Shown one piece after another: positions 1-42,701 of a stretch of 64,000 nucleotides of DNA. The notes under the pieces were generated by a model that saw only the letters and a list, made by a program, of their open reading frames with translations, was not told the origin of the DNA and did not search any database. Each line of letters begins with the position of its first letter. The first letter of the stretch is position 1. A program made the translations under genes and the position numbers. Origin of the DNA: a virus; IMG/VR virus record IMGVR_UViG_3300042894_004766, positions 1 to 64,000 of that record. The stretch is one strand, 5' to 3'.

Positions 1-4
1 TTTG

Positions 5-93
5 TAGTCTGTACGGGATTCGAACCCGCGTTACCTCCTTCGAAGGGAGACGTCCTGACCCACCGAGGTGAGTATCCACTAGACGAACAGACC
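5..93 (-). tRNA. tRNA-like gene 1, tRNA-Glu-like body, anticodon loop reads UCG, hairpin in D-loop
   Basis: The acceptor stem GGTCTGT/ACAGACT, the D-stem GTCT/GGAC and the T-arm GCGGG-TTCGAAT-CCCGT form a good cloverleaf with discriminator A and no encoded CCA. The D-loop keeps the GG pair but then carries an extra 16-nt hairpin at 58-73 (ACTCAC, loop CTCG, GTGGGT). The anticodon loop is CTTCGAA, so the literal anticodon is UCG (Arg), although the body resembles Bacteroidetes tRNA-Glu. A small hairpin (AGTGT/ACACT, 96-117) lies directly upstream of the 5' end. It is probably co-transcribed with the tRNA-fMet and the next tRNA-like gene from the promoter at 422-453. It could be a functional tRNA, a decoy or a structured non-coding RNA. 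Confidence 0.75.
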
Positions 94-182
94 GAAGTGT
101 CGTGTTTTGATTACACTAAAGATGAATTCTTGTATAAGAAGTACCAACTTGTCAACATTACAGAAATGACATTTACACTTAG

Positions 183-255
183 TAGCGGGAGAAGGACTCG
201 AACCTCCGACCTTATGGTTATGAGCCACACGAGCTACCTACTGCTCTATCCCGCG
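183..255 (-). tRNA. initiator tRNA-fMet (CAU)
   Basis: This is a normal-looking cloverleaf with the anticodon loop CTCATAA (anticodon CAU). Two initiator hallmarks are visible: an unpaired C1/U72 at the end of the acceptor stem, and A11-U24 in the D-stem (GAGC/GCTC) where elongators have a pyrimidine-purine pair. The C1/U72 form is the one usual in Bacteroidetes initiators. No CCA is encoded. It sits between two hairpin-bearing tRNA-like genes, 5 nt from the next, which suggests a polycistronic precursor needing RNase P-type processing. Confidence 0.9.
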
Positions 256-260
256 ATATG

Positions 261-376
261 TAGTCTGTACGGGATTCGAACCCGCGTTCCTCTCTCGTGA
301 CTAAGAGAATGTCCTGTTTACCTTACTTTAATGCCGAAGCTTTTTGTTCAGTAAACATCCACTAGACGAACAGACC
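261..376 (-). tRNA. tRNA-like gene 2, 41-nt hairpin insert in D-loop, 8-nt anticodon loop
   Basis: It has the same acceptor and T-arm as gene 1 (GGTCTGT/ACAGACT, GCGGG-TTCGAAT-CCCGT) and an intact D-stem (GTCT/GGAC). A 41-nt insert closed by GTTTAC/GTAAAC follows the D-loop GG; it holds an inner GC-TTCG-GC element. The anticodon stem TTCTC/GAGAG closes an 8-nt loop, TTAGTCAC, so the decoding triplet cannot be assigned with confidence. The total length of 116 nt is far above a class I tRNA. A leader hairpin (AAGAGTG/CACTCTT, 378-410) abuts the 5' end and the promoter at 422-453 lies just upstream of that. Confidence 0.7.
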
Positions 377-377
377 G

Positions 378-410
378 AAGAGTGTCGGAATTAAAACGCG
401 CAGCACTCTT
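378..410 (-). other. leader hairpin abutting tRNA-like gene 2
   Basis: AAGAGTG (on the minus strand) pairs with CACTCTT across about 19 nt, ending one base before the mature 5' end of the tRNA-like gene. Equivalent but non-identical hairpins precede tRNA-like gene 3 (AAGAGT/ACTCTT, 575-630) and gene 1 (AGTGT/ACACT, 96-117). Their repeated position suggests a processing signal or part of the RNA itself. Confidence 0.5.
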
Positions 411-421
411 ATTTTGTTTGA

Positions 422-453
422 CAAAGATACGGTGACTTTTTTAATCTACCAAA
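422..453 (-). promoter_or_regulatory. Bacteroidetes-type promoter (copy A) for tRNA cluster
   Basis: On the minus strand TTTG (450-453), a 20-nt spacer and TATCTTTG (422-429) match the Bacteroidetes housekeeping consensus TTTG-N19-TAnnTTTG. The whole block, including the spacer, recurs nearly unchanged at 644-675 and 908-939 and in altered form at 1107-1137 and 9814-9844. Confidence 0.85.
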
Positions 454-475
454 TCTTTTTTCATTTATTTTTTTG

Positions 476-573
476 TAGTCTGTACGGGATTCGAACCCGC
501 GTGTTCTCCTTAATTGCCGAACCGGCGAGAAGACATCCTATCTACCGAGGTAGCTCCACTAGATGAACAGACC
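476..573 (-). tRNA. tRNA-like gene 3, hairpins in both D-loop and anticodon loop
   Basis: Acceptor and T-arm are the same as in genes 1 and 2. The D-stem has changed from G10-C25 to A10-T25 (ATCT/GGAT), a compensatory pair change that keeps the stem. The D-loop insert is CTAC-CTCG-GTAG. The anticodon stem TTCTC/GAGAA closes an 18-nt loop that itself contains GCCG-GTT-CGGC followed by AATTAAG, so no conventional anticodon is exposed. Length is 98 nt. As drawn it cannot decode unless the insert is removed. It has its own leader hairpin and its own promoter (644-675). Confidence 0.7.
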
Positions 574-643
574 GAAGAGTTGTGCTTTCTTACACCACGA
601 AGCCGAGTATTTCACACGACGCCTACTCTTATTTTTTGTTTGA

Positions 644-675
644 CAAAGATACGGTGACTTTTTTAATCTACCAAA
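644..675 (-). promoter_or_regulatory. Bacteroidetes-type promoter (copy B)
   Basis: The minus-strand sequence TTTG (672-675), 20 nt and TATCTTTG (644-651) is identical in the motif and spacer to copy A. It reads into the leader hairpin and tRNA-like gene 3. Confidence 0.85.
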
Positions 676-697
676 TCTTTTTTCAATTTTTTTTTTG

Positions 698-775
698 TGA
701 CCGAAGTTGGGTTCGAGCCAACAACTAGCGTTACTTCTATTTCAAGAATACTACTTTACATTAAGTTACCCGGCC
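698..775 (-). tRNA. degenerate tRNA-like gene 4, anticodon uncertain
   Basis: The acceptor GGCCGGG pairs with TTCGGTC (G-U pairs allowed), and the T-arm is GTTGG-CTCGAAC-CCAAC. The D-arm is ACTT/AAGT with a 6-nt loop lacking the usual GG. The anticodon arm TTC/GAA or TTCT/AGAA gives a loop of 8 or 6 nt containing TTGAAA, readable as GAA (Phe) or UGA (Ser). A short AAC-GCTA-GTT hairpin may serve as a variable arm. It lies 4 nt downstream of tRNA-like gene 5 and must share its transcript. It could be a decayed tRNA or a variant tRNA. Confidence 0.55.
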
Positions 776-779
776 TTAG

Positions 780-890
780 TAGTCTGTAAGGGATTCGAAC
801 CCATGTTTACAATCTCTCCATATACCAGGGCATAAAAGCGTGAGATTGTCGTCCTATTACCGAAGTAATATACCGCTAGACGAACAGACC
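780..890 (-). tRNA. tRNA-like gene 5, UUCG hairpin in D-loop and hairpin in anticodon loop
   Basis: The acceptor GGTCTGT/ACAGACT and D-stem GTCT/GGAC match genes 1-3, with the T-arm slightly altered (ATGGG-TTCGAAT-CCCTT). The D-loop carries ATTAC-TTCG-GTAAT, a stable C(UUCG)G hairpin. The anticodon stem is extended to 8 bp (ACAATCTC/GAGATTGT) and closes a 25-nt loop in which ATGC-CCTG-GTAT can pair. Length is 111 nt. The promoter at 908-939 would start transcription within about 10 nt of the 5' end, so unlike genes 1-3 there is no leader hairpin. Confidence 0.68.
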
Positions 891-907
891 ATTTTATTTT
901 TGTTTGA

Positions 908-2951: not shown

Positions 2952-2997
2952 AAAGTTATTTTTTAATGTATAGTTTTTAAAATTAAAAAGTTTAAAA

Positions 2998-3190
2998 AGT
3001 AAGTGAGCTTAGCCGCGATTTTGTTTTATCCTATCATTTATCTTTGCATCAACCCGTTCTCATAGGGAAACCGACACCCTCAAACTGTTTGACTTGCTAC
3101 TTCCTTAGTACAATCGACGTTAGTCTCCTAAGTTAGGTTTTGTAGTCGCGAACTTCCTCTGTTTCCAGCGATAGGTTCTCTGCTTACTAA
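2998..3190 (-). ncRNA. rnpB: compact RNase P RNA
   Basis: Reading the minus strand, the parts of the RNase P catalytic core appear in order. P1 is GUAAG..GAG with CUC.CUUAC (3178-3187 with 2999-3007). P2 is CCUAUC with GAUAGG (3170-3175 with 3030-3035). P3 is CUG-GAAA-CAG (3159-3168). A GAGGAAGUUCGCG stretch matches conserved region I. P4 pairs AG[U]UCGCGA (3146-3154) with UCGCGGCU (3011-3018) and keeps the family's bulged U. Near the 3' end AAGAUAAAUGAU and ACAAAAUCGCGGCU match the last conserved regions. At about 195 nt it is roughly half a bacterial RNase P RNA and seems to lack most of the specificity domain. It would mature the 5' ends of the unusual tRNA transcripts. Confidence 0.82.
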
Positions 3191-3981: not shown

Positions 3982-4821
3982 CTATCTTTTAAATTCATCA
4001 AATTTTAAAAGTTTTGACTCAACTACTACTTCTTTCGCAGTTGTACCACCTCTTCTTTCCATTGCTTTCCATTTCTTATCTAAGAAAGCTAACTTAGCTT
4101 TATCGATTTTGCAGTTTCTATCTGAAATGTTTCCTTCGTTGAAAAGTGCAATCATTTCATCAATACTTAATGTAGGGTGTTTTTTATCAAACAATGGATC
4201 TGGATGTGACCAACCAAATTTAAGTAACCAGTTTAACATAGCAGCCTTACTGAAGTCTTTGTAGTCTTCTGTTGTACCGTTACCTTTTCTCTTAGATAAT
4301 TTAGCATTACCTTCAAAAAGTAAACCAGCATGTGTAATAACTGGAAATGGTTTGTCTCCTTCAACTTCACAAATCTTATCCCAGATTAAGTGTTGTTTTA
4401 CCTCATTTGCAATGTGGTCAACACCTCTGATGATGTTAGTTACATCATAATCATAATCATCTAAGATTGAACAAAAGTTATAAGTAGGAAATCCGTTATT
4501 TCTAAGGATAACCATTGAGTACTCTCCCATATCTAACTCGTAACCATTCTCAGTTTTAGTACCGATTTTTTCAGCTACTTCTTTATAACGGTCTAATCTT
4601 TCGGACTGTCTGAATGTGATGTCATGATCTAATCCAAACTCTGCCATTTGATCATAGATATAGTCAATCCATTCTGGTTTATTTCTTTCTTGATCGGTAT
4701 CATCAATTCTTAAAATGAATGTACCGTTATTAGCTCTTGCTTGAAGCCAAGCAAGTAATGCTGTACGTAAGGTTCCTAAATGAAAGAATCCAGTTGGAGA
4801 GGGTGCTACTCTTGTTACCAT
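3982..4821 (-). CDS. glutamyl-tRNA synthetase-like catalytic core without anticodon-binding domain
   Basis: Class I synthetase signatures are intact: APSPTGFFHLG with the HIGH-type HLGT at residues 14-17, and the KLSKR loop near residue 176. Fold order and motifs match GluRS. At 279 aa it stops where the family's C-terminal anticodon-binding domain (a further ~200 residues) should begin, a layout also seen in Glu-Q-RS enzymes. The conserved loop and full KLSKR argue for an active enzyme. It could glutamylate RNAs by acceptor and D-arm identity alone, which fits the tRNA-Glu-like bodies at 1-900. Alternatives are a Glu-Q-RS-like tRNA modifier or a tRNA-binding regulator. Confidence 0.85.
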   Translation of the reverse strand: MVTRVAPSPTGFFHLGTLRTALLAWLQARANNGTFILRIDDTDQERNKPEWIDYIYDQMAEFGLDHDITFRQSERLDRYKEVAEKIGTKTENGYELDMGEYSMVILRNNGFPTYNFCSILDDYDYDVTNIIRGVDHIANEVKQHLIWDKICEVEGDKPFPVITHAGLLFEGNAKLSKRKGNGTTEDYKDFSKAAMLNWLLKFGWSHPDPLFDKKHPTLSIDEMIALFNEGNISDRNCKIDKAKLAFLDKKWKAMERRGGTTAKEVVVESKLLKFDEFKR

Positions 4822-15458: not shown

Positions 15459-16301
15459 TTAGTCTTGTAATTCAAGTTGTTCTTGATTTTGTTTTTGAAG
15501 TAACTCCATAGCTCTTGCTAATCTTGTTAAACCAATTCCTGCACCAAATCTTGGAAAGAAATCAAATTTTAGGAAATCTTCCAATTCTTTTTCTACTCTT
15601 TCTTTTCCGAATAATTCAAATAATTTTTCAGAATATCCACCATTTTCTATTGTATAAAACATTTTTCTCATAGAGTCAATATCGCAACTTCTTTCTGCAG
15701 CACCTATTGTTTCTTGTCCATATAATATTATATCAACTTTATTAAATAGATCATCTTTTTGATTTTGCATGTTCCAAAATGGATTAGTTCTTAGTGGAAA
15801 GTTTTGAAGAGAAACACAATGACTTACTTCATTCCACATTTTAGTTTCATGTTCATTTTCTAAAATTGATACGTCTCCATATTCTTTACAAGTTTTATTA
15901 TAGTCCATTTCAACAGGTGATCCAAATCCTAAATACTCAAGAAGTTCTTTTTCTAATAGAATTAAATCTTTATATTTACCTTTTGATTCAAACTCAAACA
16001 TTGGAAAGATTAGTTCATGTCTTCCAGGAATTGGATTTTTTTCTGCTCTGTAACTTGTAGATACACAGAAAACTCCATCCCAAGTAGGATTTTTTAATAA
16101 TTCATACTCAAGCCACATTTGTCCAGTTTGTGGTAGTGGCCATATCTCACCATTGTATTCAAAGGTTGATACGGAGTGTGGGTTTTCACACGCTGCTAAG
16201 ATTGATAATCTTGATTGTGTTGGTACTTCTACGAAGTTTTTTTCCAAAAAAAATTCTCTTAGTTTTTGAACTAGAGAATTGTACATTAAAGTGTTTGTCA
16301 T
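15459..16301 (-). CDS. class II aminoacyl-tRNA synthetase catalytic core (AsnRS/AspRS/LysRS-like)
   Basis: The 280-aa protein contains class II motif 2 (YRAEKN..GRHELIFPMFEFE, residues ~87-106) and motif 3 (GAGIGLTRLARAM, near 258-270). It has no N-terminal OB-fold anticodon-binding domain, so it is a bare catalytic core like AsnA-type asparagine enzymes or the EF-P lysylase EpmA. The amino-acid substrate cannot be decided from the residues I see. It may act on tRNA, on a protein, or make a free amino acid. It is the third reduced synthetase in this window. Confidence 0.8.
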   Translation of the reverse strand: MTNTLMYNSLVQKLREFFLEKNFVEVPTQSRLSILAACENPHSVSTFEYNGEIWPLPQTGQMWLEYELLKNPTWDGVFCVSTSYRAEKNPIPGRHELIFPMFEFESKGKYKDLILLEKELLEYLGFGSPVEMDYNKTCKEYGDVSILENEHETKMWNEVSHCVSLQNFPLRTNPFWNMQNQKDDLFNKVDIILYGQETIGAAERSCDIDSMRKMFYTIENGGYSEKLFELFGKERVEKELEDFLKFDFFPRFGAGIGLTRLARAMELLQKQNQEQLELQD

Positions 16302-41385: not shown

Positions 41386-41432
41386 TTGAACATTTGATTT
41401 TTTTCACTATATTTGTAAAAATTATAATAAAG

Positions 41433-42701
41433 ATGAAAGAACAATTAAACCAACTTATAAATGAAAGATCTCCTGGATCTAAACCAATCTTCTTGGTTAT
41501 TAGGGGATCACACGCATACGGAACTAATATAGAGACTTCTGATACCGATTATGCGGGTGTATTTATCCAATCATTGGATGATATTCTTGGTAGTAAATAC
41601 AAACAGCAAGTAAATGATGATACTAATGATACTGTAATCTATGAGTTACGTAGATTTTTAGAATTATTGGCTAGTAATAACCCAACAGTTTTAGAATTAC
41701 TTAATACTCCAGAAGATTGTATTATCTATAAAGATCCTATTTTTGATTTAATATTAGAAAATAGAGAACAATTTATTACTAAAATCTGTGCTAACTCTTT
41801 TGGTGGTTATGCAAGAGCTCAAATTGGTAAAGCAAAGGGTCAAAATAAAAAACAAAACTGGGAAAAAGATAAGGTAACTCGTAAAGATTTACTTGACTTT
41901 TGTTACGTTATTCAAGGAACAAAAGCTATTCCATGGAAAAAATGGAATGATGGTAGATTTGATGAAAGATTTATTGGTGCAGTAAATGTTCCATATGCAA
42001 AAGATGTTTATACCTTATTCTATGATACTGAATCTGATATGATGTTCTCTGGTAAAGAGAAAAAAGAGTTAAGTGATATGATGATTCAACAACGTAAAGA
42101 CTCTGGTCGAGCATTGGGTCTTGGTTATAAAGGATTGGTTAAAGTTGGTTCGACTACTATTGATAGAAGTAAACTTACTAATATGACTGATGAACAAATT
42201 GATAGACTTGAGTTAGTTTTTCAAAAAGAAGCAGAAAAGAACTTAGGTGTCTCAAATCAATTGAGGCTATCTTCAATTCCAAAAGGACAAGAACCATTTT
42301 GTACTATTACTTATAACAAAGATGGATATTCAGAACATTGTAAAGACTTTAGAGAGTATGAAGAATGGTTATCAAAAAGAAATCTTCAAAGATGGGTAGA
42401 TGTTAAGTCTCACGGTCAACAAATTGATGGTAAGAATATGATGCACTGTCGTAGATTGATGGATATGGCTCGTGAGATTGCAGAAGGTAAGGGTATCCTT
42501 GTTAAAAGAGATAATGCACAAGAACTTCTTTCAATTAGAAGAGGTGAAATAGATTTACAAACTTTGATTGATCATGTTGAAAGTGAGATTAAAGAAGTAG
42601 ATACTTTGTTTAAAGAATCAGATTTACCAGAAAAGGTAGATGAAAATTTTATAAATAGTTTATTAGTAAAAATTAGAAAATCAGTTTATGGTATACAGTA
42701 A
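41433..42701 (+). CDS. RlaP-like nucleotidyltransferase (RNA-repair associated)
   Basis: The ATG at 41433 is preferred; a TATATTTG promoter element (about 41406-41413) lies 20 nt upstream. RGSHAYG (GS at 25-26) and D37-x-D39 (TSDTDYAG) form a polymerase-beta-type active site, and the 422-aa length and C-terminal helical region fit the YcgL/RlaP family often linked to RNA repair. It might add nucleotides or a phosphate-bearing cap to damaged RNA ends. The exact activity is not established for the family. Confidence 0.8.
   Translation: MKEQLNQLINERSPGSKPIFLVIRGSHAYGTNIETSDTDYAGVFIQSLDDILGSKYKQQVNDDTNDTVIYELRRFLELLASNNPTVLELLNTPEDCIIYKDPIFDLILENREQFITKICANSFGGYARAQIGKAKGQNKKQNWEKDKVTRKDLLDFCYVIQGTKAIPWKKWNDGRFDERFIGAVNVPYAKDVYTLFYDTESDMMFSGKEKKELSDMMIQQRKDSGRALGLGYKGLVKVGSTTIDRSKLTNMTDEQIDRLELVFQKEAEKNLGVSNQLRLSSIPKGQEPFCTITYNKDGYSEHCKDFREYEEWLSKRNLQRWVDVKSHGQQIDGKNMMHCRRLMDMAREIAEGKGILVKRDNAQELLSIRRGEIDLQTLIDHVESEIKEVDTLFKESDLPEKVDENFINSLLVKIRKSVYGIQ

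Follow-up and report, generated by a model that had tools for sequence, protein, structure and literature searches.

tRNA-Glu-like genes with D-loop hairpins beside the giant RNA GOLLD in a group of huge phages: candidate non-decoding structural RNAs

The DNA analysed here (the window) comprises bases 1–64,000 of the 99,791-bp linear IMG/VR contig IMGVR_UViG_3300042894_004766 and begins with a cluster of four tRNA-Glu-like genes, g1 (5–93), g2 (261–376), g3 (476–573) and g4 (780–890), all on the minus strand. An earlier note had placed genes at these positions and described a common tRNA body with a different hairpin grafted into each D-loop, and our analysis bears this out. The acceptor stem GGTCTGT/ACAGACT is identical in all four genes, the T-arms are as described, and the D-stem reads GTCT/GGAC in g1, g2 and g4 and ATCT/GGAT in g3, a true two-sided change from G-C to A-U. 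Acceptor stem, T-arm and D-stem form the pairs of a cloverleaf, with one T-stem mismatch each in g4 and g3'. The D-loop is not of ordinary length: inserts of 14–43 nt in the window clade follow the conserved GG, a site at which normal tRNAs vary in length too. Each insert forms a distinct complementary hairpin on the minus strand, namely ACUCAC-CUCG-GUGGGU in g1 (58–73), a 41-nt hairpin with the arms GUUUAC and GUAAAC in g2 (316–356), CUAC-CUCG-GUAG in g3 (542–553) and UAUUAC-UUCG-GUAAUA, which contains the arms ATTAC/GTAAT noted earlier, in g4 (855–870). The hairpin loops are CTCG or TTCG. The motif GGGATTCGAACCCNNG, with at most one mismatch, has four matches against 0.00 expected.

A canonical anticodon loop is absent from three of the four window genes. 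The exception is g1, whose 7-nt loop CUUCGAA keeps U33 and A37 and formally reads UCG, with UUC present but out of register. The loop of g2 has 10 nt, lacks UUC and is free of hairpins; on these two genes the earlier note needs correction, while the extra anticodon-arm elements that it reported in two genes are present as GCCG-GUU-CGGC inside the loop of g3 (516–526, minus strand) and as an 8-bp anticodon stem around a 25-nt insert in g4. The combination of a 5-bp anticodon stem, a 7-nt loop, U33 and a UUC anticodon thus occurs in none of the four genes, nor in g0, a further gene of related phages that carries a UUCG tetraloop. Measured against the published identity set for glutamyl-tRNA synthetase (GluRS; PMC9976931), the determinants U11-A24 and U13-G22 are retained in the D-stems of g1–g4, and the set U34, U35, C36 and A37 is not matched in the window-clade genes. 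With a tRNA intron of group I or archaeal type in mind, the D-loop insert can be removed on paper, which leaves the anticodon arm still non-canonical; no intron family matched. ARAGORN calls none of the four genes, its sole call in the cluster being a tRNA-Met at 182–255, and the Rfam tRNA model gives g1, g3 and g4 27.8, 30.4 and 20.3 bits, near or below threshold.

Two further tRNA-type genes lie on the same strand: an initiator-type tRNA-Met between g1 and g2 (183–255, 61.2 bits), which relatives keep beside the GOLLD RNA discussed below, and a degenerate tRNA-Phe-like gene at 698–775 (32.4 bits). Both g2 and g3 are preceded by a minus-strand leader hairpin that ends at the tRNA-like 5' end (AAGAGUG...CACUCUU at 377–413 and AAGAGU...ACUCUU at 574–633). 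Upstream of these are Bacteroidota-type promoters on the minus strand, TTTG-N20-TATCTTTG at 422–453 for g2 and the same sequence at 644–675 for g3; g4 has a minus-strand promoter motif of this type at 908–939, and the three promoters are near-identical.

A gapped-pattern search recovered the same cluster in the two closest relatives, G001 (179.6 kb) and G002 (73 kb). Between the window and G001, g1 is 100% identical, g2 matches at 115 of 116 positions (99%) and the spacer from g1 to tRNA-Met at 80 of 89 (90%); between the window and G002, g1 matches at 87 of 89. Both relatives carry the fifth gene, g0, whose anticodon arm consists of a long hairpin with C(UUCG)G at its tip, and further odd tRNA-like genes lie within their clusters. 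A further contig, G043, has a g2 orthologue with the D-hairpin GUUUUAC/GUAAAAC and the anticodon arm CUUCUC-UUUU-GAGAAG, closed by a UUUU tetraloop; its neighbours are another tRNA-Glu-like gene and the tRNA-Met seen in the window. Across the family the UUC anticodon is lost in the window clade (out of register in g1), G043 and G047, where tetraloops (UUUU, UUUA, UUCG) or inserts take its place. It is kept in W01, W03, G010, G032, W02 and L259, in a 6-nt loop (UUUUCA, UAUUCA or UUUUCG) closed by an added C-G pair. Ordinary tRNA-Glu(UUC) genes are also present in these phages where contigs are large. The family shares the acceptor stem, D-stem, D-loop GG and T-arm of bacterial tRNA-Glu (RF00005), but most members have 12–43 additional nucleotides in the D-loop and a non-canonical anticodon arm.

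One exact gapped pattern run against about 85,000 bacterial and archaeal genomes found no window-type tRNA-Glu; its four matches have another architecture, and one of them, L088 in a Neomarinimicrobiota metagenome-assembled genome (MAG), has a palindrome in place of the 3' side of the D-stem. A plasmid search gave matches over only about 10% of the query, around tRNA-Met. Other unusual tRNA-like genes were seen in phage contigs. In the same phages, genes for tRNA-Cys, tRNA-Gly and tRNA-His that have normal anticodons carry GNRA-type D-loop hairpins (L113:8752–8834, L113:3052–3134 and L112:817–907). Four phages have tRNA-like genes of about 128–130 nt, possibly Phe, with a conserved long insert between D-arm and anticodon arm (L112:1609–1738, L115:3076–3203, L272:1403–1531, L275:12782–12909). 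A permuted tmRNA (RF04321, 56 bits) lies beside an anticodon-less tRNA-like gene at L303:9691–9861, and a tRNA-Met-like gene in G029 (L101:4073–4246, minus strand) has a long anticodon-loop insert containing a second T-arm-like piece. The T-stems of the Glu-like genes at L118:7292–7386 and L259:7801–7901 (minus strand) appear to contain a bulged U (AGAG(U)G).

The D-loop inserts behave as conserved structures. Taken singly, the g-type inserts compare with their shuffles at p 0.01–0.11, which is suggestive only. Over about 18 families the folding energies are better than those of shuffles with a Fisher combined p of ~2e-18, a value obtained with mononucleotide shuffles, with inserts parsed by pattern and families hand-picked as independent, after G043_g2 and L242 (mis-parsed or cut short) and L255 (unfolded), all at p = 1, were dropped by hand and L249 and L250 (p ~0.22 each) and near-duplicates of counted inserts were left out. 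A homologue search in related phages, proposed in the earlier note, showed that the hairpin arms have stayed complementary. Facing positions pair within genes in 130 of 130 cases (25 arms), against 44.6% after arms are swapped between genes; the first figure is partly true by construction, the arms having been read off folds, so that the exchange control and the shuffles bear the weight. As insert lengths differ, arms were compared directly and not by column-wise covariation in MAFFT alignments.

Orthologues also show compensatory change. In G001 the g4 hairpin has gone from AUUAC/GUAAU to AUCAC/GUGAU, U-G has become U-A in hairpins of the g1 (G002) and g0 orthologues, and a two-hairpin insert common to G010 and L259 differs by CUC/GAG to CCC/GGG and by AAUCAGA/UCUGAUU to AAACAGA/UCUGUUU. 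With these changes, the locus layout conserved in diverged phages and the dedicated promoters, the earlier proposal that the structure is selected and not a product of decay is well supported.

GOLLD is a giant RNA that forms large cages and is found near tRNA genes. A GOLLD match of 323–324 bits (RF02032, gathering score 150) adjoins the cluster in G001 and G002, and GOLLD lies beside the cluster in G043 too, so that in these relatives the Glu-like genes stand next to matches above the gathering score. Eight further phage contigs carry GOLLD, namely G010, W02 (LR745206), W03 (LR756502), G031, G033, G034, L368 and L369, and in all eight a non-canonical Glu-like gene follows its 3' end at 7–144 nt. 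In G010, L368, L369, W02 and W03 a non-canonical Glu-like gene starts 7–13 nt past the GOLLD 3' end, and in G031, G033 and G034 it starts about 130–145 nt past it. An initiator-type tRNA-Met lies upstream of GOLLD in most of these loci, and in G010, W02, G031, G033 and G034 there is also an upstream tRNA-Tyr-like gene with an 8-bp anticodon stem and an AGUA or UGUA closing. Among the Tyr-like genes of this form (AGUA or UGUA, 8-bp stem) upstream of GOLLD are those at L111:3612–3696, L118:5837–5924, L238:4535–4620 and L258:1515–1600. In G010, W02 and W03 the non-canonical Glu-like genes are at the GOLLD flanks, and many canonical tRNAs, including tRNA-Glu(UUC), are elsewhere. The transcriptional layout differs between phages: in W02 one promoter motif is followed by Glu-like, Met, GOLLD, Glu-like and Glu-like genes and then by one terminator-like hairpin, while in the window clade GOLLD and the tRNA-like genes have separate promoters.

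On this sequence evidence the Glu-like RNAs look like a conserved non-translating RNA component rather than decayed tRNA genes. The account we prefer, tentatively and as something a little short of probable, is that they are small, stable, tRNA-Glu-derived non-decoding structural RNAs and belong, as a conserved component, to the GOLLD locus in a group of huge phages. Of the possibilities raised in the earlier note, a non-decoding role best fits the genes without an anticodon, namely g0, g2, g3, g4 and those of G043 and G047. What is kept (acceptor stem, T-arm, D-stem and D-loop GG) corresponds to the needs of RNase P, the CCA-adding enzyme and the L-shaped fold; in most copies the anticodon loop has been closed off, exchanged or lengthened, and the extra hairpin arises from the variable part of the D-loop. 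The transcripts would be trimmed as tRNAs are. Where a transcript is shared (in W02, and from GOLLD onward in G010), a cut at the tRNA-like 5' end, 7–13 nt downstream, would set the GOLLD 3' end; the single promoter motif and terminator-like hairpin of W02 suggest that this end probably arises in that way. In the window clade GOLLD and the tRNA-like genes have their own promoters and must therefore act as separate RNAs, and in infected cells the tRNA-like RNAs may serve in trans as partner or cargo RNAs for the GOLLD assembly. Any joint action with GOLLD we infer from their position. The bolder form of this idea, in which the GOLLD cage of huge phages has its own set of non-decoding tRNA-like RNAs (Glu-like with D-hairpin, Tyr-like with tetraloop) as cargo or assembly partners, processed in tRNA fashion at the same locus, possibly by a reduced phage RNase P RNA, we regard as conceivable but doubtful. 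A probable reduced RNase P RNA of about 193 nt is located at 2995–3187 on the minus strand (RF00010, 16.7 bits, E = 0.002, far below gathering), with related stretches in LR745206 and LR756501, and is a possible maturation factor for the tRNA-like RNAs.

Several observations weigh against the tie to GOLLD. The window contig stops at g1 and does not itself contain GOLLD, whose presence is deduced from close relatives. The stretches examined of four GOLLD loci of the same subgroup (L371, L372, L373 and L375, at least three of them apparently near-identical) contain no Glu-like gene, and most other GOLLD loci lack one as well. Of 79 GOLLD loci located with another motif, 13 carry a called tRNA no more than 1.5 kb away, and these tRNAs are ordinary except for G010's own; counts from one viral scan for GOLLD are lower bounds. 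We therefore rejected the idea that odd tRNAs accompany most GOLLD loci, since the tRNAs are ordinary where any are nearby; the odd genes mark the GOLLD loci of this phage group and not GOLLD generally. Conversely, W01 has many tRNA-Glu-like genes with 6-nt loops and no GOLLD was found there, G032 has many as well (GOLLD was not searched for in it), and G047 has anticodon-less genes and no GOLLD match in the 20.8 kb examined. The D-loop hairpin is not specific to the locus either: the tRNA-Cys, -Gly and -His genes have it despite their normal anticodons, so by itself it is no mark of a non-decoding RNA. Adjacency to GOLLD is not proof of interaction.

The main rival, which we consider unlikely on balance, is that Glu and Tyr variants with closed or resized loops escape host anticodon nucleases or occupy them as decoys. 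Escape from VapC-type nucleases has been described for phage tRNAs with altered anticodon loops (PMC10264068), the loop changes seen here are concentrated on Glu and Tyr, and the window contig encodes an RlaP-type RNA-repair gene. Shielding, as suggested in the earlier note, fits the more distant relatives in which UUC sits in a 6-nt loop with an added C-G (W01, W03, G010, G032 and W02), but is impossible for the anticodon-less genes: no UUC anticodon remains in g0, g2, g3, g4 or the genes of G043 and G047, which therefore cannot stand in for a cut tRNA-Glu. Anticodon arms that differ among paralogues mimic no shared nuclease site, and the position beside GOLLD is left unexplained. That position is equally unaccounted for if the RNAs act like mascRNA, as anticodon-less cloverleaves that bind GluRS, EF-Tu or another partner and alter its activity, an idea we find improbable. 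Its appeal lies in mascRNA itself, which is processed by tRNA enzymes, has no conserved anticodon loop, bears tRNA-Glu determinants and binds GlnRS without being charged (PMC9976931), in the Glu determinants retained in the D-stems, and in full-length GluRS genes beside the tRNA islands of G010, G011, W02 and W03. The main GluRS determinants, those of the anticodon loop, are lost, however, and binding to EF-Tu is made less likely by the apparent bulged U in the T-stem of copies from W02 and L259.

A third use of the Glu identity would involve a GluRS catalytic core of 279 aa encoded at 3982–4821 on the minus strand, which lacks the ~75-residue connective peptide and all anticodon-binding domains. 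That this core glutamylates the anticodon-less RNAs for a purpose other than translation also seems improbable to us. Its catalytic motifs are invariant across nine aligned phage homologues (77% mean identity), it is found together with Glu-like genes in the window clade, G043, G047 and W02, and 690 bp separate it from an anticodon-less gene in G047; but the missing connective peptide is the part that binds the acceptor, the two gene types are far apart in W02, and G010, W01, W03 and G032 have Glu-like genes without the core. As the core is present in G015, G040 and G046, whose scanned parts yielded no non-canonical Glu-like gene, we rejected the notion that the small GluRS always accompanies these genes. 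Identity as a glutamyl-Q synthetase was likewise rejected, bacterial GluRS scoring higher (205 against 122 bits, both below cut-off). It is more improbable still that the genes are working tRNAs that carry an ornamental D-loop hairpin and decode through unusual loops, for although the tRNA-Cys, -Gly and -His genes with D-loop hairpins have normal 7-nt anticodon loops and g1 has such a loop with U33 and A37, most Glu-like copies have UUUU, UUUA or UUCG tetraloops or inserted hairpins in its place. Least credible, and disfavoured, is that they are degenerate genes or recombination debris. Decay is common in phage tRNA islands, the neighbouring genes include odd tRNA-Phe-like and Ser-like ones and the tRNA scores are low, yet pairing is kept in every acceptor stem, D-stem and D-hairpin, and the compensatory changes, own promoters, identity of g1 between two phages and shared layout in diverged phages speak against decay.

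The contig encodes terminase, head protease and tail-sheath genes and thus belongs to a tailed phage with a contractile tail. Relatives of its terminase occur on contigs of up to 476 kb, which places the phage in a huge-phage group. Promoters in the window are of the type TTTG-N20-TANNTTTG, from which we infer Bacteroidota hosts. The RlaP-type nucleotidyltransferase (PF10127), a family of RNA-repair pathways, is encoded at 41394–42701 (plus strand), and a 280-aa core of a class II aminoacyl-tRNA synthetase (PF00152), lacking an anticodon-binding domain, at 15459–16301 (minus strand).

A search of open-licence papers returned no description of anticodon-less tRNA-Glu-like RNAs with D-loop hairpins and none that connects such RNAs with GOLLD. 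The nuclease-evading tRNAs described by van den Berg et al. (2023; PMC10264068) are likewise phage-encoded, tRNA-derived and altered in the anticodon loop, there by mutation, but are proposed to remain competent for decoding, whereas window-type RNAs have closed or lost loops and a D-loop hairpin. Like mascRNA of MALAT1 (PMC9976931), our RNAs would be cloverleaves that tRNA-processing enzymes release from the end of a long non-coding RNA; both have tRNA-Glu determinants and lack a conserved anticodon loop. mascRNA, however, is eukaryotic, is not related by descent and has no D-loop hairpin. The pseudo-tRNA of mycobacterial GOLLD (PMC6582537) is another non-functional-looking tRNA tied to this RNA, but lies inside GOLLD, and its expression was not detected there. 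The GOLLD RNAs of tRNA islands (RF02032; PMC12286853) share the RNA family and the habitat. An initiator tRNA-Met lies just upstream of several other GOLLD loci too, but the called tRNA genes adjoining those loci are canonical, unlike those of the window group, and in the passages and papers searched we found no mention of non-canonical Glu- or Tyr-like genes at GOLLD.

Tallies of phage tRNAs made with standard programs miss such genes, as the failure of ARAGORN to call any of the four in the window illustrates. The presence of conserved, mostly non-decoding tRNA look-alikes at the GOLLD of one phage group makes the link between tRNAs and GOLLD testable and indicates that phages can convert tRNAs into structural RNAs. 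If the tRNA-like RNAs are indeed cargo or partners of the cage, these phages would build an RNA-based compartment with RNA cargo.
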